A stretch of DNA of 44,066 nucleotides from positions 1-44,066 of the forward strand of contig JAICUY010000005.1 of the NCBI GenBank assembly GCA_025935615.1, given 5' to 3'. How positions within the stretch are numbered: position 1 is the stretch's first letter; the number at the start of each line of letters is the position of its first letter. The notes under the pieces were generated by a model that saw nothing but the letters and a program-made list of their open reading frames with translations, did not search any database and was not told the DNA's origin. This DNA is from Steroidobacteraceae bacterium (GTDB lineage Bacteria > Chloroflexota > Limnocylindria > QHBO01). The position numbers and the translations under genes are program-made. This document shows positions 31,884 to 42,869 of this stretch, in pieces.

Positions 31884-33011
31884 TCAGCTGAGCCTCAGCC
31901 TGAATGAGGCGAGGCCGTCGCTGGGATACACCGACCGGCGCACCTCTCCACTGACGGAGAAGCTGCGTGTGCGCCCCAGCAGCTCCTCGAGCGCGATCCG
32001 CATCTCGAGACGGGCCAAGGGCGCGCCAAGGCAGACGTGAATGCCGTGGCCCCACACCAAGCCGTCGTCGCTCTGCCGGTTGATGCGTACCTCTTGCGCA
32101 TGATCGAAGGCATCCGGATCGCGATTGGCAGCGATCCACATCAGGCTCACGCTGGCGCCAGCGGGGATGCGACGACCGCCGATCTCCACCTCGCGGGTCG
32201 TGGTTCGACGATTTGCCACCAGCGGGTCGTCCACACGCAGAATCTCCTCGACCGCGGCGGGGATCATCGATGGATCGTTGCGCAGCCTGTCCTGCAGGTC
32301 CGGGTGTTCGGCGAGGTGCAGCGCGAGGAGGCTGATACCACCCGCAACCGTTCCCTCGCCCGCCACCCAGTTGCGCAGGATGCTGATGATCTGCTCATCG
32401 TCGAGTCTGTCGCCGTCGACCGAGGTCTCGAGCAATGCATCGGTCACATCGTCATGCCCTGCGGCACGGTGCTGGTCGAGGTTCGCGGATACATGCTCGG
32501 AAAGGAGTCCCGCAAGCGCGCGCCCCGCGGCCGGGTCCCGATTGAAGGCCGCCTGCTGGTTGCCATGCGTCCACCCGCCGAGGCATTCCCACTGCTGTTC
32601 TGACCAGCCCAGGAAGGCGCACAGCGTCCTCAGGGTGAACGGAGTGGCAAAGGACTCCATCAGCTCGGCGTCGCCCGCCGCAAGCATCGGCGCCAGCAGG
32701 TCGATGGCGATCTCGCGGCTCCGAGGCTCGAGTGCCGCCATCGCGTCGTCGCTGAAATGCGACGTGAGGGCTGCTCTGAACCGACCGTGCGCCGGTGGGT
32801 CCATCCCGCTCGGGATGGCGAGGTGTCGCGATGCGCTGCTGTACGTCGCGGGATCGTGCACCGCGCCCATGACGTCCGCGTGGCGAAACAGTGACCAGCC
32901 CATGAACTCGCTGTATGCAACCGGACAGGTCTCTCGCATCTCGTCGTACGCGCGACGCTGATCAACGAGCACAGATGCAGCACGGGGATCCCAGTCGTCC
33001 CGCTGGGTCAT
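31884..33011 (-). CDS. Cytochrome P450 with a non-canonical I-helix
   Basis: 375 aa. The heme-ligand loop is WGHGIHVCLG with Cys327, the ExxR pair is Glu256-Arg259, and NRRTTTREVEIGGRRIPAG and ANRDPDAF are present. The I-helix is AGEGT (217-221): Thr is kept but the usual acid before it is Gly. That pair normally delivers protons for O2 activation, and fungal P450 nitric oxide reductase also lacks the acid there. I recall this P450 subfamily (RNW...G...T, PLVANRR) without a known substrate. The ATG overlaps the stop of the 66-aa gene; hemerythrin and DUF2249 genes lie upstream on the same strand. NO chemistry is a hypothesis. Confidence 0.9.
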   Translation of the reverse strand: MTQRDDWDPRAASVLVDQRRAYDEMRETCPVAYSEFMGWSLFRHADVMGAVHDPATYSSASRHLAIPSGMDPPAHGRFRAALTSHFSDDAMAALEPRSREIAIDLLAPMLAAGDAELMESFATPFTLRTLCAFLGWSEQQWECLGGWTHGNQQAAFNRDPAAGRALAGLLSEHVSANLDQHRAAGHDDVTDALLETSVDGDRLDDEQIISILRNWVAGEGTVAGGISLLALHLAEHPDLQDRLRNDPSMIPAAVEEILRVDDPLVANRRTTTREVEIGGRRIPAGASVSLMWIAANRDPDAFDHAQEVRINRQSDDGLVWGHGIHVCLGAPLARLEMRIALEELLGRTRSFSVSGEVRRSVYPSDGLASFRLRLS

Positions 33012-33211
33012 CACAGCAGCTCGATGAACAGTTCGGCGATGATGTCTCGGCAGTCATCCCGCGGCGCATCGTCGGAAGCGTCGACCCCGCACATCTCCAG
33101 GCGCGGAGCTCTCGGCAGCGCGCCGACCGGGCCGCCTGTCGTCTCGGGCGGGACGGTGGCGAAGCCTTCGGACGCCGACTCGAGCCTCAGCACCACCAGC
33201 GGTGCGTTCAC
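33011..33211 (-). CDS. 66-aa protein between the DUF2249 gene and P450
   Basis: The GTG at 33211 overlaps the stop of the DUF2249 gene (GTGA) and its TGA overlaps the P450 start, so the three reading frames are chained. The protein begins APLVVLRLESASEG, has two Cys residues (EMCGVD and DDCRD) and ends in an acidic amphipathic helix (CRDIIAELFIELL). It resembles no family I know. The chained overlaps on both sides argue that it is real and works with its neighbours. Confidence 0.55.
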   Translation of the reverse strand: MNAPLVVLRLESASEGFATVPPETTGGPVGALPRAPRLEMCGVDASDDAPRDDCRDIIAELFIELL

Positions 33212-33738
33212 GACGCGGTCTCGGAGGCGCCGGCGACTGGTAGTTCATCGCCATCGAAGCGCTCCTCGACCTGATCGGCCGGAGCCGTGCGACCGATGCG
33301 CACGCGCCAGACCGTCGGTCCCTGCTCGAGGTACTCCCAGGCGAAGGTGCCGGCGTGCTCGGCAGCGAACTGGTAGTAGAGCGGCTTCGGATCGTGGTCG
33401 TTGACCAGGACGAAGGCGGTGTCCACCTCCAGCGCGTTGAACGCGTCGAAGATCATGGCGTGGCGCCGGATCGGCGGGTCGTTACGCACGTCGAGAACGA
33501 GATCGTCGGCCATGGCGGAACTCCTTTCAGCAAGCGCGGCCGCCTCGAGTCGCGCCAGGTGGTGCATCACGCCGTTCAGGCGCTCTGCGATTCGTGGTTC
33601 GTCGTGCCGCAGCGCGGCATAGCCCTTCGCGGCGATCCGGCTGGCGGCCACCGGTTCGCCCGACTCCCCCAGGCGGCGCAGCGCCGTCACCAGGGCGGTG
33701 GCGAGATCATCGATGGGCCGCGCAGTCGAAGGACGCAT
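33208..33738 (-). CDS. DUF2249 protein with an N-terminal helical extension
   Basis: 176 aa. Residues about 79-150 are the DUF2249 domain (LDVRNDPPIRRHAMIFDAF, LVNDHDPKPLYYQFAAE, WEYLEQGPTVWRVRI), a TusA-like fold found with hemerythrin and denitrification genes. The first 74 residues are helical and unassigned. An internal ATG (33513, MADDLVLDV) follows AAAGGAG by about 7 bases, so a second short product of only the DUF2249 domain is likely. The full-length ATG at 33738 has a weaker site. It lies between hemerythrin and the 66-aa gene. Confidence 0.85.
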   Translation of the reverse strand: MRPSTARPIDDLATALVTALRRLGESGEPVAASRIAAKGYAALRHDEPRIAERLNGVMHHLARLEAAALAERSSAMADDLVLDVRNDPPIRRHAMIFDAFNALEVDTAFVLVNDHDPKPLYYQFAAEHAGTFAWEYLEQGPTVWRVRIGRTAPADQVEERFDGDELPVAGASETAS

Positions 33739-33749
33739 GGGTCTGTGAC

Positions 33750-34205
33750 CTAACCCAACAGCTCGTGCATGCCGTCCAGCAGCTCGGCGAGGGAGACGGA
33801 AGGGTCGGCCTGCAGTGCAGGAATGAGGAGATCGTTCTCCTTGGCCAGGTGCGAGTCGAAGAGCGCCAGGATGGCGCTCGACAGCGCGACCGCCTGAATG
33901 GCGTCGCTGGCCTTGCGGAAGGCGTCGATGTGCGCGATCAGATTCACATGCTCGTCGCGCATGGCGCGAACGAGCAACGCAGCCGGACCGACGTCGGCAG
34001 CGGCATAGACCGTCCTCTCCTCCGCGGCGGCATGTGGCAGCAGCTCGTGGTCGAGGTAGTCGAGCACCGCCTGCTGCTGATCGAAGTGTCCCTGCCGCGC
34101 CTGGACGGCGGCGCCGAGTGCGGCGACTCCGCGTCGCAACGTGGTCGCCATCTCGCCGTGGTGCGCGCGGATCGCCTCCGCCGCCTGCGCGTTGTTCATG
34201 GTCAT
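33750..34205 (-). CDS. Hemerythrin-domain protein
   Basis: 151 aa from the ATG at 34205; an ATG at 34199 is also usable. Putative di-iron ligands are His and Glu in RAHHGEM, HELLPHAAAEE (HxxxE), DEHVNLIAH and SHLAKEND (HxxxE), the four-helix hemerythrin pattern. Bacterial proteins of this size bind O2 or NO, or repair NO-damaged iron centres (RIC/YtfE-like). It is the first gene of the arm DUF2249-66 aa-P450 and is divergent from the three-Cys regulator across a 93-base region with an inverted repeat. Confidence 0.85.
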   Translation of the reverse strand: MTMNNAQAAEAIRAHHGEMATTLRRGVAALGAAVQARQGHFDQQQAVLDYLDHELLPHAAAEERTVYAAADVGPAALLVRAMRDEHVNLIAHIDAFRKASDAIQAVALSSAILALFDSHLAKENDLLIPALQADPSVSLAELLDGMHELLG

Positions 34206-34258
34206 CGTCTCGGTGCTCCGTGGGGTCGGCGCGGCGCGGGGCCGTTGAGGGGACGCCG

Positions 34259-34300
34259 ACACTTGATATTTACGGCTACTTCCGTGCAAAATGCAAGTGT
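34259..34300. promoter_or_regulatory. Inverted-repeat operator between hemerythrin and the three-Cys regulator
   Basis: ACACTTG (34259-34265) and CAAGTGT (34294-34300) are perfect 7-bp arms 28 bases apart, with further partial symmetry inside (ATATTT facing AAAATG). The right arm overlaps the regulator's GTG start. A CAAAAT box (34287-34292) sits six bases before that GTG. The local AT content stands out in GC-rich DNA. This is a probable site for the adjacent HTH regulator to control both arms. Confidence 0.55.
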
Positions 34301-34967
34301 GAGATCCGATGCGCAGCGCTACCGCGTTCTGGCCGGCATCAGCCGGTCGCGATTGCTCGCCGTCCTCCATGCCAGCGATCGAGCGATGGCAATCGGCGAG
34401 CTGGCCGACGCCGTCGACCTGCACCCGAACACCGCCCGCGAACACCTCGACCAGTTGGTCGCCGCCGGTCTCGTCTCGCGCGCTACGGCGGCACCGGCGG
34501 GCCGAGGGCGCCCCGGACTGCGATACGCCGCCACGCCGTTGGGACGGGAGGACGATCCGCAGGCGTACCGAGCGCTGGCCTCGGTCCTGGCGACCGAGCT
34601 GGCGAGCCGTCCGGACGCGCGCGAGGCGGCAACCAACGCCGGCGAGCGGTGGGGCGCCGGTGCTGCGCGCATCGGGCCGGCGATGCAACCAGGTGCCGAC
34701 GCGGTCGACGGCCTGGTTGACCTGCTCGACGAGGCCGGCTTCAGTCCCCGGCGCTCGGCAGCCGACCCGCGGACGATCGAGCTGCACCGCTGTCCATTCG
34801 AATCGCTGGCGCGCGAGCGTGGCGACATCGTCTGCAACGTCCACCTCGGGCTGATGCGAGGCGCGCTGCGCGAGCTCGGTGCGCCGCTCGAGGCAGTCAG
34901 CCTCGAGCCGTTCGTCGCCTCCCAACTCTGCCTGGCCCACCTCGGACCGCGAGCCAATGACAGCTGA
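34299..34967 (+). CDS. HTH regulator with a three-cysteine, SufR-like C terminus
   Basis: 222 aa from GTG 34299. Residues about 6-80 form an ArsR-like winged helix (RLLAVLHASDRAMAIGELA, LHPNTAREHLDQLVAAGLV, wing GRPGLRYAATP). The C-terminal half has Cys165 in HRCPFESLA, Cys179 in DIVCNVHLGLMRG and Cys211 in QLCLAHL. Spacing C-x13-C is near that of SufR-type iron-sulfur repressors, so a cluster may sense NO, O2 or iron. It is divergent from hemerythrin and overlaps a MIP18 gene. Function is inferred from motif and context; the ligand is unknown. Confidence 0.82.
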   Translation: MRSDAQRYRVLAGISRSRLLAVLHASDRAMAIGELADAVDLHPNTAREHLDQLVAAGLVSRATAAPAGRGRPGLRYAATPLGREDDPQAYRALASVLATELASRPDAREAATNAGERWGAGAARIGPAMQPGADAVDGLVDLLDEAGFSPRRSAADPRTIELHRCPFESLARERGDIVCNVHLGLMRGALRELGAPLEAVSLEPFVASQLCLAHLGPRANDS

Positions 34968-35355
34968 CCGATCGACCGATGCGGCCGTCGGCGCCACCCC
35001 GGCCCGCGACGCTCCCGGTGCGCCGATGACCGTCTCGGGCCTGCTCGGGACGAGCGTCGATTCGGGCACGCTGCTTCGGGCACTGCGCGCCGTGATCGAT
35101 CCCGAGCTCGGGGTGAACATCATCGATCTCGGGCTCGTGTATGGCGCCGAGGTGGTCGACGGCCGCGCCGAGATACTGATCACGACCACCACGCCGGCCT
35201 GCCCGCTGGGGCCGTACCTGAGCGATGGAATCCGCTGGGCGCTGCTGAAGCTTGACGGCGTCCTGGACGTCGAGATCGAGGTGACCTACGACCCGTTGTG
35301 GTCGCCGGCCCTCATGACCGACGTCGCGAAGGCGCAGCTCGGCTGGCGGACGTGA
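34957..35355 (+). CDS. MIP18-family (DUF59) iron-sulfur assembly protein
   Basis: 132 aa. The N-terminal 35 residues are low-complexity (Ala/Thr/Pro), then LRAVIDPELGVNIIDLGLVYGAEV, TTTTPACPLGPYLSDGIRWAL and VTYDPLWSPALM form the DUF59 domain. The Cys in PACPLG is the usual conserved one. Members help mature iron-sulfur proteins (SufT, PaaD-like). The ATG overlaps the regulator's end, so they are coupled; it might insert or repair the regulator's cluster. A start further in (MTVSGLL) is possible. Confidence 0.88.
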   Translation: MTADRSTDAAVGATPARDAPGAPMTVSGLLGTSVDSGTLLRALRAVIDPELGVNIIDLGLVYGAEVVDGRAEILITTTTPACPLGPYLSDGIRWALLKLDGVLDVEIEVTYDPLWSPALMTDVAKAQLGWRT

Positions 35356-36491
35356 TCGACCGCCGCAGCCTGGCGCTGCTGTCACTCGGTGGCGTCTCTC
35401 TGTTGGCCGGCCTGACCGGCGCCCTGGTCCTCCTCGGCGTAGGCATGCCGAGCGGCACCTCGCACCTGGCGGCTGCCCACGGGCTGCTGATGACGCTCGG
35501 CTTTCTCGGAACCATGATCGCGCTCGAGCGCGCCGTTGCCCTGCGCGAGCGGTGGGCGTTCCTGGCGCCGCTTGCCGCCGGTCTGGGTGCGATCGCACTG
35601 CTGGTGGGGGCGCCGCCCCTCGTTGCCGGCATGCTGCTGCTCGCCGGCGGACTCGTCTTCGTCGCCATGTACGCGGCGTTCGACCGGATCGAGGTAGCGC
35701 TGCACATCCGCACCCAGGCCGTCGCCGCCGTTGCGTGGCCGGTTGCCACGCTCCTCTGGCTGCTCGACCGGCCGGTGAGCGGGATCGTTCCCTGGCTGGC
35801 GGCATTCCTCGTACTGATCATCGCCGGGGAGCGGCTCGAGCTGTCGCGGCTCGGCCAGCTTGCCCCGCGAGCGAGGCTCAGCTTCATCAGCGCGGCGGGA
35901 CTGCTCTGCGCCGGCGTAGTGCTGACGCTGCTGGTTCCCGACCTGGGCTCGCGCGTCGCCGGCGCCGGGCTCGTCGCGCTGGCCGCGTGGCTGGCCGTGC
36001 ACGACCTCGCGCGACGCACCGTGCGCATGGGCGGCGTCACCCGGTTCATCGCGCTGTGCCTGCTGATGGGTTACGGCTGGCTGGCCGCAGGGGGGCTGCT
36101 GTGGATCGGCTTCGGCGCCATGGGCGGCGCGGCGTACGACGCCATGCTGCACACGATCTTCCTGGGCTTCGTCATGTCGATGGTCTTCGGCCACGCGCCG
36201 GTGATCATCCCCGCGGTGCTGCGCGTGCCGCTCCCGCACCACGAGCGCTTCTACGTGCACCTTGCCCTGCTGCACGCAGGCTTGCTGCTGCGCGTCCTCG
36301 GCGGCGACCTCCTGGGCGCGCACCGGCTATGGCAGCTGGGTGGGGTGCTGAACGTGATCGCGCTGCTCCTCTTCGTCGCATCATCCGCAGCGGCCGTGCT
36401 CCAGGAGCTGTCCGCACGCCGTGGATCGCCGCCCCGGCGCTTCGTGCGTCGAACACAGCGGTTGCAGCGCGAAGTGGTGCGGATCGACTGA
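35352..36491 (+). CDS. His-rich polytopic membrane protein, NnrS-like
   Basis: 379 aa from GTG 35352, which overlaps the MIP18 stop (GTGA). About 11 or 12 hydrophobic segments. Conserved His residues fall in or near helices: LAAAHGLLMTLGFLGTMIALERA, HTIFLGFVMSMVFGHAPVIIPAV, and LPHHERFYVHLALLHAGLLLRVLGG. This resembles NnrS and other heme-copper-oxidase-like proteins linked to NO; no function is proved for this branch. The tail is strongly basic. It ends convergent with the second membrane protein gene (31 bases between stops). Confidence 0.7.
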   Translation: MIDRRSLALLSLGGVSLLAGLTGALVLLGVGMPSGTSHLAAAHGLLMTLGFLGTMIALERAVALRERWAFLAPLAAGLGAIALLVGAPPLVAGMLLLAGGLVFVAMYAAFDRIEVALHIRTQAVAAVAWPVATLLWLLDRPVSGIVPWLAAFLVLIIAGERLELSRLGQLAPRARLSFISAAGLLCAGVVLTLLVPDLGSRVAGAGLVALAAWLAVHDLARRTVRMGGVTRFIALCLLMGYGWLAAGGLLWIGFGAMGGAAYDAMLHTIFLGFVMSMVFGHAPVIIPAVLRVPLPHHERFYVHLALLHAGLLLRVLGGDLLGAHRLWQLGGVLNVIALLLFVASSAAAVLQELSARRGSPPRRFVRRTQRLQREVVRID

Positions 36492-36522
36492 GCATTTTCC
36501 GGCACCGCCAGGCCTGACCAGT

Positions 36523-37797
36523 TCAGCTTGCGCTGGCCGATGCGAGCAGCGCCGCCCCTAACAGCCCGACCGCAGTGAGCGCTGCCGCGCCGAAGAGCAG
36601 GGCGCCGACGGCAATGAGGGCCGGGACACCCATCCCGAATCCGGCCCACAGCACGACCAGGCCGGCGTTCCAGGCGACCACCCGAGTGGCGCCGAAACGT
36701 GACAGCAGGTTCCGCTGGCGCGCCTTGGTCGCCATGTCGCCGGGTCCGACCGCAGGCAGCAGATGGCCCCAGGCAGCGACCAGCTCCTGCAGCGCCCAGC
36801 CGCCGATGAGCGGCACGGCCAGCGGGCCGAGCGTCCATCCCGGAACCGCGACGCCATCGCGCACCAGGCCGACCAGCAGCGCGACGGTGCTCGCCACGAA
36901 CCAGGCCATGCCCGCCAAGCCATGCCGCGCGGTGAGCTCATGCCAGGCAAAGTCGTTCGCCCACCTGCCGCGCCGGCCCCAGATTTCGAGGCCGTAGCCC
37001 AGCAGGCCGAGCGATCCGGCGACCGCCAGCCCGCAGCCGGCGATCGCCAGTCCGTCCCAGTTGAGAACCGATGCGAGCGCGACGAGCGGTGGCCCAACGA
37101 TCAGGCCGACGATCGCAACGACCATGGTCGGGTGCGGCCGGATGCGGGTCCCGAGCATGGTCGGATAGAGGTAGATCAGCGTCCCCGCGATGGTCAGCGA
37201 CACGAAGCCGAGCACGTTGAGCCAGGCGTGCGCCGGCTTGAGCGCGGCCCACGCCTCGACGACCGGAGTGACGCCGAAGAGAAACAGGATGGCCAGCGAA
37301 GCGCCGGCCACGAGGTCGACCAGCGCCACCCCGTAGGTCAGCTGCACGATCGGGTGGCGGCGCGCAAGCCCGGACCGCATCGGTGCGTAGGTGTTCCAGG
37401 CCGTGATCGCCAGGCCTGACAACACCAGCACACCGGCTCCTGCCGCAATGTGATCCCCGGCAAGCGGACGCCCGAGCGCGACGCCCAGCATGCCCAGGTA
37501 GAGCGCCACGATGCCCGCCAGGCGCATCACGACCGGCTCGGGACGCGTCCCGGCCAGCGTGACGCCGAAGTGTGGCATGAACGTGCCGATGGCCACGGTG
37601 GTGGAGCCGGCAAGGACCAGGTGGATGGCCGTCCATCCATGCAGGCCGCCGACTGGGAAGAATCCGCTCACCAGGGACAGGACCAGGAACGACGCGGCGA
37701 GCGCGACGCCCAGCTGGAGGACGACGCGCTCGGTGAGACGCGAGGATGCCGGAGCGGCGGCGTGCCGCTCCGGCATCGGTCCGATGGCCAGGTCCAT
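36523..37797 (-). CDS. His-rich polytopic membrane protein paired with NirK
   Basis: 424 aa from the ATG at 37797, which is 4 bases after the nirK stop; the frame extends upstream into nirK. About 11 or 12 hydrophobic segments. His in TAIHLVLAGSTTVAIGTFMPHFGVT, in KPAHAWLNVLGFVSLTIAGTL and in TARHGLAGMAWF could bind heme or copper. From memory the first part resembles the membrane domain fused to NirK in some Actinobacteria, so here the same pair may be encoded as two genes. It may anchor or deliver electrons to nitrite reductase. Function is inferred. Confidence 0.65.
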   Translation of the reverse strand: MDLAIGPMPERHAAAPASSRLTERVVLQLGVALAASFLVLSLVSGFFPVGGLHGWTAIHLVLAGSTTVAIGTFMPHFGVTLAGTRPEPVVMRLAGIVALYLGMLGVALGRPLAGDHIAAGAGVLVLSGLAITAWNTYAPMRSGLARRHPIVQLTYGVALVDLVAGASLAILFLFGVTPVVEAWAALKPAHAWLNVLGFVSLTIAGTLIYLYPTMLGTRIRPHPTMVVAIVGLIVGPPLVALASVLNWDGLAIAGCGLAVAGSLGLLGYGLEIWGRRGRWANDFAWHELTARHGLAGMAWFVASTVALLVGLVRDGVAVPGWTLGPLAVPLIGGWALQELVAAWGHLLPAVGPGDMATKARQRNLLSRFGATRVVAWNAGLVVLWAGFGMGVPALIAVGALLFGAAALTAVGLLGAALLASASAS

Positions 37798-37801
37798 CGG
37801 C

Positions 37802-38896
37802 TTAGTTGAGCGGGTCGCCGTCGCCCGCCTGGAAGAGGCCGAGGGCTCCCTTCGCCGGGAAGTTGAAGGCATGGGTCAGGAAAGGATAGAGCCCTTCTTC
37901 GGCGAGCCGGAACTCGACGATCGCTCCCTGCGCGGCGGCAAGGTCGACGGCCTGCGAGCCCCAGTTGCCCGCGTTGCCGCGCTGCAGGTGGATCCCTTCC
38001 TTGATCACGTCCTCGAAGATCGTGCCCACCACGTGGAAGCTCGAGTCGATGTTCGGACCCGCATCCAGCACGAAGACGCGCACCGTGTCACCCACGGGGA
38101 CCTTGATCGGGTTGTCCTTGTACTGGTTGGCGATGCCGTTGAAGACCACGAAGTCCGGAGCGGGCGCGCCGGCAGACGCCTTGGCGATGTCGCCGGTCTG
38201 GCCCTGCGGGCCGAGATACCACTCGTTCTGGACCAGGAAGTACTCGTGGTCGACCGTGGGCAGCCCCTCGCGCGGCTCGACGATGATCATCCCGTACATG
38301 CCGTTGAGCATGTGGCTCAGCGCGCCGGCGGTGCCGCAGTGGTACATGAACACGCCCGCGTAGTCCGCCTTGAACTCATAGAGCTTCTCCTCGCCGGGCA
38401 TGATGTCGGTCATCTCGTCGTTCCAGGCCACCATCGAGGCATGGAAGTCGACCGAGTGCGGCATCACGTTGGTCTTCGGGTTCTTGAGGTGAACCCGAAC
38501 GGTGTCGCCCACCTTGACCCGGATGACCGGACCGGGGACGGTCGCGTTCTTCTCGGTGGTGCCGAAGGCGTAGACCGTCTGCACGAAGCCGTCGGCCACC
38601 GTCATCGGCTTCTCGACCACATAGAGGTCGATGTCGTGAACGGTGCCCTTGGCCAGCGCCGGAGCCGCGGCGTCGCGCAACGTGTACTTCGGGGCATTCG
38701 GGTCGGCCGCGACCTCGCCGGCGGGCGCCGCGCTCGGTGACGGGCTGCCGCTGGAGTGGTCCATGCCGGGCATCGACGCCATCGTCGTCGGGACTGCAGC
38801 CGCGTGTGCGGCCGGTTGCTGAGCAACCTGGCCATAGATCAGCGTCAGCAGCGACATGCTGACGAACGCCGAAATGAAGATGAAGATCCTGGTCAT
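37802..38896 (-). CDS. nirK: NirK-type copper nitrite reductase
   Basis: 364 aa with an N-terminal signal anchor (IFIFISAFVSMSLLTLIYG) and a Met/His-rich stretch (MASMPGMDHSSG). Two cupredoxin domains follow. Type 1 copper: His147, Cys187, His195, Met200 (MPHSVDFH; YHCGTAGALSHMLNGM). Type 2: His152, His186, His342 (THAFNF). Asp150 and His288 (FHVVG) match the catalytic Asp98 and His255 of known NirK, which separates it from laccases. Cys187 to His195 has seven intervening residues, one fewer than in the Alcaligenes-type loop I recall. It reduces nitrite to NO outside the membrane. It is coupled to the membrane protein and divergent from the GAF kinase. Confidence 0.92.
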   Translation of the reverse strand: MTRIFIFISAFVSMSLLTLIYGQVAQQPAAHAAAVPTTMASMPGMDHSSGSPSPSAAPAGEVAADPNAPKYTLRDAAAPALAKGTVHDIDLYVVEKPMTVADGFVQTVYAFGTTEKNATVPGPVIRVKVGDTVRVHLKNPKTNVMPHSVDFHASMVAWNDEMTDIMPGEEKLYEFKADYAGVFMYHCGTAGALSHMLNGMYGMIIVEPREGLPTVDHEYFLVQNEWYLGPQGQTGDIAKASAGAPAPDFVVFNGIANQYKDNPIKVPVGDTVRVFVLDAGPNIDSSFHVVGTIFEDVIKEGIHLQRGNAGNWGSQAVDLAAAQGAIVEFRLAEEGLYPFLTHAFNFPAKGALGLFQAGDGDPLN

Positions 38897-39050: not shown

Positions 39051-40544
39051 ATGACCGATGCGGATCGGCTCCCGCTCTCGGCGCTGCTCGATGCGCTCAG
39101 CGCGTGGCAGCACGACCCCGCTGACGACGCCCGGCGGGCGGTCGCCGACGCCCTCGATGTGCTGGTCACGCGTCTCGGCCTGGCCGGCGCCGCACTCCAC
39201 GTCGTCGCCGCGCCGCTCGTTCCGATCCAGGTGGCGTCCGGCACGCTTGCCGGGCTGCCGGCGGACGGCGGCGTGCCGCTGACAGCAGCACGGCCGCTGG
39301 GCCTGCTACGCCTGGACCCGCCGGACGGGGGCGCGGCCGCAACCGCCGTCCACGCCGTCGGTCTGGCGGTGGCTGCCGTCCACGGCGAGGCGCGGGCGCA
39401 ACGGGCGGAGGCCAACCTGGCCGCGCTCGACGTCGCCGTCCGCGGCGTCGCCGGCGTGCTGAGCGTCGAGCGGGTGCTGCAGGAGATCGTCGATCGCGTC
39501 CGCGAGCTGGCGGACGCCCGCTACGCGGCGCTTGGCATCGTCGACGACGAGGGCGTCATCGAGCAGTTCGTGACCTCGGGGATGAGCGACGAACAACGCG
39601 CGCGCATCGGTCACCTGCCACACGGACGCGGCCTGCTGGGGCTCATCATTCGCGAGAACCGCGCCTTTCGGATCCCCGACATCGCCACCGATCCGCGACG
39701 GTACGGCTTCCCGCCCCACCACCCGCCGATGCACTCGTTCCTGGGCGTGCCGATCACCATGAAGGGGCGCTCCATTGGCCGGCTGTACCTGACCGAGAAG
39801 CAGGCCGCGCCCGACTTCAGCGCCGAGGACCAGCAGCTGGTCGAGCGCTTTGCCTTGCACGCCGGGATTGCCATGGAGAACGCGCGCCTCCACGAGCGGG
39901 TGCGCCGGCTCGGCATTGCCAGCGAGCGCGAGCGGATCAGTCGCGACCTGCACGACAGCATCGTCCAGCGCATCTACGGCGTGGCGCTGTCGCTCGACGA
40001 CGTGCCCGAGCTGGTCCACGAGGCGCCCGACGAGGCCGCCGGGCGCGTCGACCGCGCCATCGACACGCTGCATGCGACGATCAGCGAGATCCGCAACTTC
40101 ATCTTCGGCCTGCGGCCGGTGCTCCTCGAGGAGGGCGGGCTGCTGACCGCACTCGAGACCCTGGCCGACGAGGTGCGCCTGAACTCGACCGTCGACGTCG
40201 AAGTCGCCGGGTCGGAACCAGGGCCGCTGCCGGTCGAGCTGTCGGGCGAGCTGCTGAGCCTGGTGCGAGAGTCGCTGTCCAACGTGGCGCGCCACGCGCA
40301 GGCGAGTCGGGCCACCATCTCGGTCGAGCCGGCCGACGGAGAACTCCACATCGAGATCGCCGACGATGGATGCGGCTTCGACGCGACCCGGACGGTGGCT
40401 TCCAGCCACCGCGGTCTGCGCAACATGGCAGATCGGGCCACGCGCATCGGCGCCGGGTTCCGCGTCATCAGCCAACCGGGCGCCGGCACCCGTATCATCG
40501 TCGACGTTCCGTACCGCCCCGCCGAAGGAGCAGCTTCACCGTGA
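39051..40544 (+). CDS. GAF-domain histidine kinase (DevS/NarL-type)
   Basis: 497 aa, with no transmembrane segment. Residues 1-120 are an unassigned, Ala-rich sensor region. One clear GAF domain (about 135-275) has HLPHGRGLLGLIIRENRAFRI and FPPHHPPMHSFLGVPI, as in the DevS/DosT heme sensors. HisKA_3 follows with His301 (SRDLHDSIVQRIYG), then HATPase_c (DDGCGFDAT, GLRNMADRA). DevS-type proteins sense O2, NO or redox state; heme binding cannot be confirmed from sequence. It is translationally coupled to a LuxR-type regulator and divergent from nirK, so control of nirK is likely. Confidence 0.9.
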   Translation: MTDADRLPLSALLDALSAWQHDPADDARRAVADALDVLVTRLGLAGAALHVVAAPLVPIQVASGTLAGLPADGGVPLTAARPLGLLRLDPPDGGAAATAVHAVGLAVAAVHGEARAQRAEANLAALDVAVRGVAGVLSVERVLQEIVDRVRELADARYAALGIVDDEGVIEQFVTSGMSDEQRARIGHLPHGRGLLGLIIRENRAFRIPDIATDPRRYGFPPHHPPMHSFLGVPITMKGRSIGRLYLTEKQAAPDFSAEDQQLVERFALHAGIAMENARLHERVRRLGIASERERISRDLHDSIVQRIYGVALSLDDVPELVHEAPDEAAGRVDRAIDTLHATISEIRNFIFGLRPVLLEEGGLLTALETLADEVRLNSTVDVEVAGSEPGPLPVELSGELLSLVRESLSNVARHAQASRATISVEPADGELHIEIADDGCGFDATRTVASSHRGLRNMADRATRIGAGFRVISQPGAGTRIIVDVPYRPAEGAASP

Positions 40545-41215
40545 ACGACGAAGCACCCACCCCCGCCCGCCCGCTGCGGCTGCGGGTGGTCGACGATCAC
40601 GAGATCGTGCGCCAGGGCCTGGCGGCGCTGCTCGACCGACGCGCCGAGTTCAGTGTCGTGGCCGAGGCGGGCACCGTGGCCGAGGCCATCGCCGCGGCGC
40701 GCCGCTTCGAACCGGACCTCGTGGTGATGGACGTCCGCCTGCCGGACGGCTCGGGCATCGAGGCCTGTCGCGAGATTCGGGCAGAGATGCCGCAGACCCG
40801 GGTGGTGATGCTCACCTCGTACCCGGACGAGGAGGCGGTCCTGTCGGCGATCATCGCCGGCGCCAGTGGCTACCTGCTCAAGCAGGTGCGCGGCCGCGAC
40901 CTGGTCAGCGCGCTCGAGGCGGTGGCGCGCGGCGATTCGCTGCTCGACCCGGCGGTCACCGAGCGCGTGCTCGAACGGGTCCGACGCGCCGCGTCCGGCG
41001 GAGAACAGGACGAGCTGGCACAGCTCACCGCCCAGGAACGCAGGATCCTGCTGCTGGTCGCCGAAGGCAAGACCAACAAGGAGATCGCCGCCGAGGTCTT
41101 CCTCTCGGACAAGACGGTGAAGAACTACGTGAGCAGCATCCTCGCCAAGCTCGACCTGCAGCGGCGGGCGCAGGCTGCGGCATTCGTGGCCAAGCACGGC
41201 CTGGATCGAAGCTAG
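40541..41215 (+). CDS. NarL/LuxR-type response regulator
   Basis: 224 aa from GTG 40541, overlapping the kinase stop (GTGA); AAGGAG is about 11 bases upstream. The receiver (about 12-130) has acidic VVDDHE, phosphoacceptor Asp64 (VVMDVRLPDGSG), MLTSYPD, and Lys in YLLKQ. The LuxR helix-turn-helix (about 158-218) contains LTAQERRILLLVAEGKTNKEIA and DKTVKNYVSSILAKL. It is the partner of the GAF kinase. Its stop shares four bases (CTAG) with the convergent SRPBCC-like gene. Confidence 0.92.
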   Translation: MNDEAPTPARPLRLRVVDDHEIVRQGLAALLDRRAEFSVVAEAGTVAEAIAAARRFEPDLVVMDVRLPDGSGIEACREIRAEMPQTRVVMLTSYPDEEAVLSAIIAGASGYLLKQVRGRDLVSALEAVARGDSLLDPAVTERVLERVRRAASGGEQDELAQLTAQERRILLLVAEGKTNKEIAAEVFLSDKTVKNYVSSILAKLDLQRRAQAAAFVAKHGLDRS

Positions 41216-42474: not shown

Positions 42475-42869
42475 CGACTTCTGAGCCGATGCGGCGCCCG
42501 CCGCGCGAGCGCTTCGCGGGCGCCGAACACGTCTTCGACCTCGCGGCCGCTGCCGAGGAGCTGCGTCGCGAGGGCCGCGCCGCACCGGGCGGACACCGCC
42601 AGGTGACGCTGTGGCACGGCGACCGGTCGAGCATCGTCCTCTTCGACTTCGATGCGGGCGGCGCGCTGCCCGGCCACCAGGCCGACGGCGTGGTGACCAT
42701 CCAGACGATCGCCGGCGAGGTGGAGGTGACGACCAGCTCGGGATCGCAGCGCTTGGCCGAGGGCCAGTTGCTGCTGCTGATCCGCGGCGTGCGTCACGAC
42801 GTCAGCGCAGCCGGAGCGAGCACGATCCTGGTGACCGTGCACCTGGCCGACGACGAAGGACGCGACTAG
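42471..42869 (+). CDS. Cupin-domain protein
   Basis: 132 aa, coupled to the DoxX gene by ATGA. The cupin core has FDFDAGGALPGHQADGVVTIQTIAGEVEV (one His kept in GHQ) and LLLIRGVRHDVSAAGASTILVTVHL (His in VRH). The first motif lacks the usual second His, so metal binding is uncertain. The Arg/Ala-rich first 30 residues are unassigned. Its stop shares CTAG with the convergent LiaF-like gene. Confidence 0.84.
   Translation: MTTSEPMRRPPRERFAGAEHVFDLAAAAEELRREGRAAPGGHRQVTLWHGDRSSIVLFDFDAGGALPGHQADGVVTIQTIAGEVEVTTSSGSQRLAEGQLLLLIRGVRHDVSAAGASTILVTVHLADDEGRD

Follow-up and report, generated by a model that had tools for sequence, protein, structure and literature searches.

The analysed window is a stretch of 44,066 nucleotides (nt) deposited as Steroidobacteraceae bacterium (contig JAICUY010000005.1; class Limnocylindria of the Chloroflexota) and forms contig C49 of a 1.88-Mb assembly (G000), which is 68% complete. 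At positions 31,884 to 38,896, a copper nitrite reductase gene (nirK) lies beside two divergent gene groups, one of which encodes a cytochrome P450. We consider it probable (about 0.6) that these genes form a nitric oxide (NO) response module around NirK, in which a repressor and a 36-bp operator would control both divergent arms. The module is real, and both its gene context and the Cys pattern of the regulator lend good support to its link to NO.

The left arm on the minus strand contains the genes for a hemerythrin (Hr), a DUF2249 protein, a 66-amino-acid (aa) protein and the P450, and diverges from the right arm on the plus strand, which consists of a helix-turn-helix (HTH) regulator, a DUF59 protein and a membrane protein termed mem1. 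A second membrane protein gene, mem2, and nirK are located on the minus strand and converge with the right arm, the ends of mem1 and mem2 being 31 nt apart. Open reading frame (ORF), Pfam and NCBIfam results placed every gene named in the initial annotation where it had been claimed (Table 1). Each arm is predicted to be an operon, because stop and start codons overlap or almost touch within it. For the left arm, the junctions are a gap of 11 nt (Hr and DUF2249), an overlap of 4 nt (DUF2249 and 66 aa) and an overlap of 1 nt (66 aa and P450; TGATG); for the right arm, overlaps of 11 nt (HTH and DUF59) and 4 nt (DUF59 and mem1) are present. The gap between nirK and mem2 is 4 nt.

The regulator carries an N-terminal winged HTH. 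Three Cys residues are invariant in 14 of 14 aligned regulators, which bears out the Fe-S-like three-Cys regulator of the initial annotation, while the cluster itself is predicted. Their spacing (+14/+32) is close to but not identical with that of ArnR (+14/+30), for which published positions were used. ArnR of Corynebacterium glutamicum binds a [4Fe-4S] cluster (Cys 179/193/223), loses DNA binding in the presence of NO, and regulates narKGHJI and hmp (PMC12343034). Both proteins possess an N-terminal MarR/ArsR-type winged HTH, three Cys at near-equal spacing and a link to nitrate or NO genes; the window regulator differs in its chloroflexotal origin, its target genes and the distance between the second and third Cys. 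Likeness to SufR, which responds to NO in Mycobacterium tuberculosis, extends to a weak NCBIfam match, a C-terminal Cys cluster and a DUF59/SufT partner. However, the SufR_cyano model (TIGR02702) gave 24.4 bits against a cut-off of 178.8, no suf operon adjoins, and three Cys are found, whereas SufR has four.

A single σ70-like promoter was found within 31.7-39.2 kb (TTGATA-N18-CAAAAT, 34263-34292). It is enclosed by the 36-bp element, which terminates where the regulator gene begins. The start codon of the regulator is uncertain, and relatives make a start a few codons downstream, directly after the operator, likely. The element was found at the equivalent position in 12 genomes, and all matches with ≤ 9 mismatches in 1.54 Mb of fetched loci are located at the 5' end of genes for regulators of this family. 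The 1.88-Mb genome contains one match (≤ 3 mismatches of 16 fixed core bases). Expression of both divergent arms, and of the P450 with them, should depend on element and promoter together. In M. tuberculosis, the [4Fe-4S] repressor SufR is described as an interaction partner of SufT (DUF59) and as damaged by NO (PMC9045647). Given this SufT-SufR link, the operator position and the ArnR-like Cys residues, the regulator is probably an autoregulated [4Fe-4S] NO-sensing repressor which would be released by NO.

One regulon comprising all three gene groups via a common operator was rejected for this genome, since the single site lies at the divergent promoter only; hence, nirK is not shown to share the operator here. 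In one relative (G339, L196:506), a second operator-like site (5 mismatches) lies close to a partial match to the regulator and suggests a duplicated regulator or promoter. More distant regulators (L204-L217) are preceded by other elements before their start codon, for example GATTATAAT or GATATTACAC-N9-GTGTAAAATATC, which perhaps represent a changed operator.

For gene counts, a sample of 151 genomes of the class was used, among which mem1 is present in 22 and mem2 in 40. In many genera of the class, mem1 is found in the order Hr or DUF2249 divergent from HTH-DUF59-mem1 (block A). In most mem2 loci of the class, nirK is the neighbour of mem2 (block B). The clustering in the window therefore exceeds chance. 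In G004, the two blocks are located on separate contigs. In G057 and G443, the HTH gene with its operator adjoins mem2, with Hr divergent, and in G418 it is found, again with the operator, immediately before nirK. These arrangements indicate that blocks A and B belong together, and a single functional module is thus better supported than from the window alone. Of the compact 7-kb module originally proposed, each block is conserved and independently kept across genera; the whole unit is not, and the P450, the least fixed gene, moves separately. The same arrangements bear on whether the regulator might be a redox or Fe-S-status sensor, i.e. SufR proper, with the divergent block serving Fe-S repair instead of NO. 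The SufR-like HTH, the Cys pattern and the DUF59 partner would suit such a function, but it is unlikely given that nirK or mem2 adjoins the regulator in these three genomes, that hemerythrin and DUF2249 are found instead of suf genes, and that the Cys spacing is near-identical to ArnR.

As claimed initially, an NO-producing enzyme is encoded: in the alignment to NirK structures of the PDB, the T1 and T2 copper-ligand motifs HSVDFH, MYHCG, SFHVVG and THAF are kept. The match to TIGR02376 (E = 1.1e-54 over the catalytic core) reaches 186 bits and remains below the cut-off of 296.3, placing the protein in a divergent clade. The reported absence of a canonical norB from view extends to the whole, though incomplete, genome, in which neither a cNOR nor a qNOR (NOR, NO reductase) was found. 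No c/qNOR signature was detected in the seven P450-bearing genomes (that of the window and six relatives), and among ten block-bearing relatives a qNOR-type signature occurs in G437 only. The nirK genomes of the class are mostly without c/qNOR, whether the P450 is present or not. A canonical NOR among the four PF00115 matches was rejected, as two are aa3 oxidases, the protein on C19 is short of the His ligands and that on C114 is of the Asn type. The latter (L037:8238-9773, minus strand) is a heme-copper subunit I in which the CuB His residues are kept and Asn occupies the position of the cross-linked Tyr (HMLVN aligned to HPEVY); Asn at this position is listed for sNOR and CuANOR (PMC8756737). 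Its gene is adjoined by CtaB and by a paralogue of the window regulator, upstream of which no copy of the operator was found. The subunit is a candidate sNOR/bNOR-type NO reductase. Because of this candidate beside a regulator paralogue, the earlier statement that NO removal would need something else is weakened, whereas its c/qNOR part holds. The COX1-like protein on C19 (L034:1378-2868, plus strand) has lost most His ligands and is conserved in G004 (C279, L167) and G018 (C66, L179); a small cytochrome c follows the gene in G000 and G004.

The P450 possesses the heme Cys loop WGHGIHVCLG, the ExxR motif and an I-helix AGEGTV with Gly at the acid position. A contig scan with the single sequence as query gave no matches, whereas an alignment-based query did. 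In the tree, 36 sequences form a clade (support 100/100) that excludes CYP55A1 and other Chloroflexota P450s. Orthologues, most of them 46-79% identical (36-37% in Moraxella), are found in Chloroflexota, Pseudomonadota, Gemmatimonadota, Cyanobacteriota, Verrucomicrobiota and Planctomycetota, and also in metagenome-assembled genomes (MAGs) labelled Acidobacteria and Thermomicrobiales; MAG labels are given as deposited, and single contigs may be misbinned. Plasmid-borne orthologues (41-48%) occur in Burkholderiaceae, Rhizobiaceae and one cyanobacterium.

The coupling of the P450 to this gene set, for which the initial annotation had no name, is not unique to the window, and the P450 is linked to NO or denitrification genes in several phyla. 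At least one NO marker was found near the P450 in 20 of 43 family loci, compared to 0 of 15 control P450 loci, which is indicative only, since part of the marker queries originated from the family loci themselves and some of the loci are very short. Genes for nirK or nirK-like proteins are located near the P450 in the window, G018, Thioalkalivibrio, an Acidobacteria MAG and Ciceribacter, in the last of which nirK is divergent from the P450. In Paraburkholderia and Caballeronia the order narGHJI-narK-P450 is observed, and in the former, genes for Rrf2, NnrS, hemerythrin, DUF2249 and DUF59 proteins lie no more than a few kb away. The 136-aa protein encoded between narK and P450 in Burkholderiaceae (L171:6376-6786 and L174:6376-6786) bears a ribonucleotide reductase alpha label which looks wrong. 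The P450 clade also recurs beside hemerythrins, and a small cupin lies beside the P450 in 14 of the 43 loci. NsrR-like Rrf2 regulators, which score 118-139 bits with the NsrR model and thereby stay under the cut-off of 182, and globins are present near the P450 in Legionella and Gemmatimonadetes, and the order in Legionella is NsrR-like regulator-globin-reductase-P450. The globin-reductase pair of L. pneumophila is a predicted NsrR target (PMC1274295). This NO-responsive operon, to which the P450 is the next gene in L. londiniensis, differs from the window in its Rrf2-family regulator and in a globin in place of hemerythrin; PMC1274295 is silent on the P450. In two Legionella loci (L078, L081), the genes for an NsrR-like regulator, a truncated globin, a ferredoxin reductase, the P450 and a nitroreductase follow one another; in-frame stops or a frameshift disrupt the P450 gene of L. 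shakespearei (L081).

Within the class, nirK is present in 7 of 7 P450-bearing genomes versus 62 of 151 in the background (p = 0.0016) and the regulator in 5 of 7 versus 25 of 151 (p = 0.0014), according to Fisher's Exact Tests which take no account of phylogeny and presuppose that the genomes with the P450 belong to the class sample. No paper describing this P450 in linkage with DUF2249, hemerythrin, NsrR, NnrS or narGHJI was found among open-licence PMC full texts, and the family is apparently undescribed. That the clade represents a dedicated bacterial NO-stress enzyme, possibly reducing or removing NO, which spread horizontally across many phyla and came under the NO sensor of each host (ArnR-like, NsrR-like or Crp/FNR-like), is a tentative proposal, more doubtful than probable.

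Three other functions of the P450 were weighed. It is unlikely to be an ordinary monooxygenase for lipids, terpenoids or xenobiotics which merely travels on mobile or rearranged DNA together with NO genes. Such an enzyme would agree with the P450 being the least fixed gene, away from block A and nirK in G004 and G038, with reductases near some loci and with standard ExxR and heme motifs, but varied NO genes accompany the P450 in several phyla, no such marker occurs in the 15 control P450 loci, and the clade as a whole lacks the acidic I-helix residue that serves in O2 activation. Somewhat less likely still is a bacterial P450nor-like enzyme that converts NO to N2O and replaces the missing NOR. 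The fungal P450nor CYP55A1 is likewise a P450 in which the acid of the I-helix pair is replaced: the residue before Thr is Ala in CYP55A1, Gly through the clade and Ser in Moraxella. This one trait of P450nor is shared by the clade, and the lack of c/qNOR signatures in the seven P450 genomes and the NO-linked neighbourhoods would fit. In contrast, identity to CYP55A1 is 24%, the position in the tree is separate, and Pro is aligned to Ser286, which is important in CYP55A1; membership in CYP55 was rejected on these grounds. In addition, ferredoxin- or FAD-type reductase genes adjoin the P450 in Legionella, Thiobacillus and G418, whereas P450nor draws electrons directly from NADH; nirK genomes of the class mostly lack c/qNOR regardless of the P450; and G000 holds the sNOR/bNOR-type candidate. 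Very improbable, finally, is a TxtE-like nitration of a small molecule with NO as co-substrate. TxtE is a P450 using NO, and NO would be made next door by NirK, but TxtE membership was rejected (71.6 bits against a cut-off of 500), no biosynthetic genes surround the P450, and the host organisms differ widely.

The ORF for the 66-aa protein probably represents a genuine gene: in one further genome (G353; L055/L084), DUF2249 is followed by an ORF whose product shares the C-terminal motif CRDxxxELxIEL. The DUF59 protein shows the SufT motif DPE-x26-31-T-x2/3-C with the Cys kept. DUF2249 proteins of Haloferax are induced under denitrification (PMC11218638). Like DrpA/DrpB and other DUF2249 proteins of nitrate respiration (PMC6282519, PMC11218638), the window protein belongs to a nitrate/NO gene cluster; it differs from these in combining a single DUF2249 domain with an N-terminal extension and in sharing an operon with Hr and P450.

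No family match was obtained for mem1 and mem2 in Pfam or NCBIfam. Calling them His-rich was an overstatement (11 His each), although three His are strongly conserved in each alignment. Both structure models have a pLDDT of 88. The mem2 model matches the folds of cbb3 and NOR subunit I (cbb3 3mk7: E = 1.9e-5, TM 0.64), and the mem1 model shows a weak heme-copper oxidase match (E = 4.9e-3). Each protein may bind heme through its three conserved His. An identity as NnrS was rejected, as neither a PF05940 match nor hhalign similarity to NnrS was found. Like NnrS, both are multi-helix membrane proteins with conserved His in NO-linked gene groups; their best fold match, however, is heme-copper oxidase subunit I.

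In the NO-response module which we favour, NirK, with its membrane partner mem2, would produce NO. The winged-HTH repressor, with a [4Fe-4S] cluster on its three Cys, would occupy the operator over the common promoter until nitrosylation of the cluster by NO causes it to dissociate from the DNA. Expression of both arms would follow, the right arm supplying the regulator, the SufT-like Fe-S repair factor and mem1, and the left arm Hr, DUF2249, the 66-aa protein and P450. Hr, the Fe-S factor and probably the P450 would limit NO damage, whereby the P450 might bind NO at its thiolate heme or act on a compound that arises from NO stress; its electrons would come from a reductase whose gene lies elsewhere. 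The original suggestion that the module makes, senses and detoxifies NO is thus upheld with respect to NirK, the probable NO-sensing Fe-S regulator and the accessory proteins; NO handling by the P450 is still conjectural.

Several points weigh against this reading. The whole-genome scan detected no operator upstream of nirK. The SufR NCBIfam match of the regulator is weak (24 bits), and its likeness to ArnR derives from published Cys positions. P450 and Hr occur together in an operator-driven operon in two genomes only (the window and G353). No NO gene is found near the P450 in some cyanobacteria, Moraxella, Halopseudomonas and some Verrucomicrobia. The origin of part of the marker queries favours the family loci in the 20/43 count, and the assumptions of the Fisher tests belong here as well.

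Beyond nirK, a kinase and response regulator pair is encoded in the window. A pair adjoining mem2 in G014 is similar to it (response regulator 87%, kinase 52% identical). The window copy of the P450-adjacent cupin has no Pfam match; the Pfam cupin match belongs to a relative (L070).

Table 1. Features of the NO-linked gene region and its surroundings (window coordinates).
Feature	Position	Strand	Evidence and remarks
Cytochrome P450, 375 aa	31884..33011	-	PF00067, 78 bits; ATG at 33011
66-aa protein, probable gene	33011..33211	-	ORF with CRDxxxELxIEL motif; overlaps DUF2249 and P450
DUF2249 protein, 176 aa	33208..33738	-	PF10006, 8.6e-29, 99.6 bits
Hemerythrin HHE protein, 151 aa	33750..34205	-	PF01814, 1.7e-15, 58 bits
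Candidate operator, CTTGATATTTACGG-N6-CCGTGCAAAATGCAAG	34262..34297	.	Imperfect inverted repeat overlapping promoter and regulator start
ArnR/SufR-like winged-HTH regulator	34284..34967	+	HTH_20, 40.6 bits; Cys 170/184/216 counted from GTG 34284
DUF59/MIP18 (SufT-like) Fe-S assembly factor	34957..35355	+	FeS_assembly_P/DUF59, 62.5 bits; ATG 34957 or 35026
mem1, 379-aa membrane protein, heme-copper-oxidase-I-like fold (weak match)	35352..36491	+	Conserved His 43, 267, 281
mem2, 424-aa membrane protein, heme-copper-oxidase-I-like fold	36523..37797	-	Conserved His 59, 190, 345; after nirK
NirK copper nitrite reductase, 364 aa	37802..38896	-	Cu-ligand motifs kept
GAF histidine kinase, possible regulator	39051..40544	+	Divergent from nirK; homologues adjoin mem2 in G014 (L110)
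LuxR-type response regulator	40541..41215		With GAF histidine kinase, divergent from nirK
Small cupin-like protein	42489..42869	+	Homologue of P450-adjacent cupins of relatives; 9.5 kb from P450

With this locus, an NO sensor, its operator and its set of targets become accessible to testing in an uncultured Chloroflexota class in which most nirK carriers show no c/qNOR. The P450 family is a likely NO-stress gene common to Legionella, Thiobacillus, Burkholderiaceae and further groups, among which there are culturable hosts amenable to gene knockout. If the P450 does remove NO, it would constitute a bacterial NO route which is currently overlooked by genome surveys.

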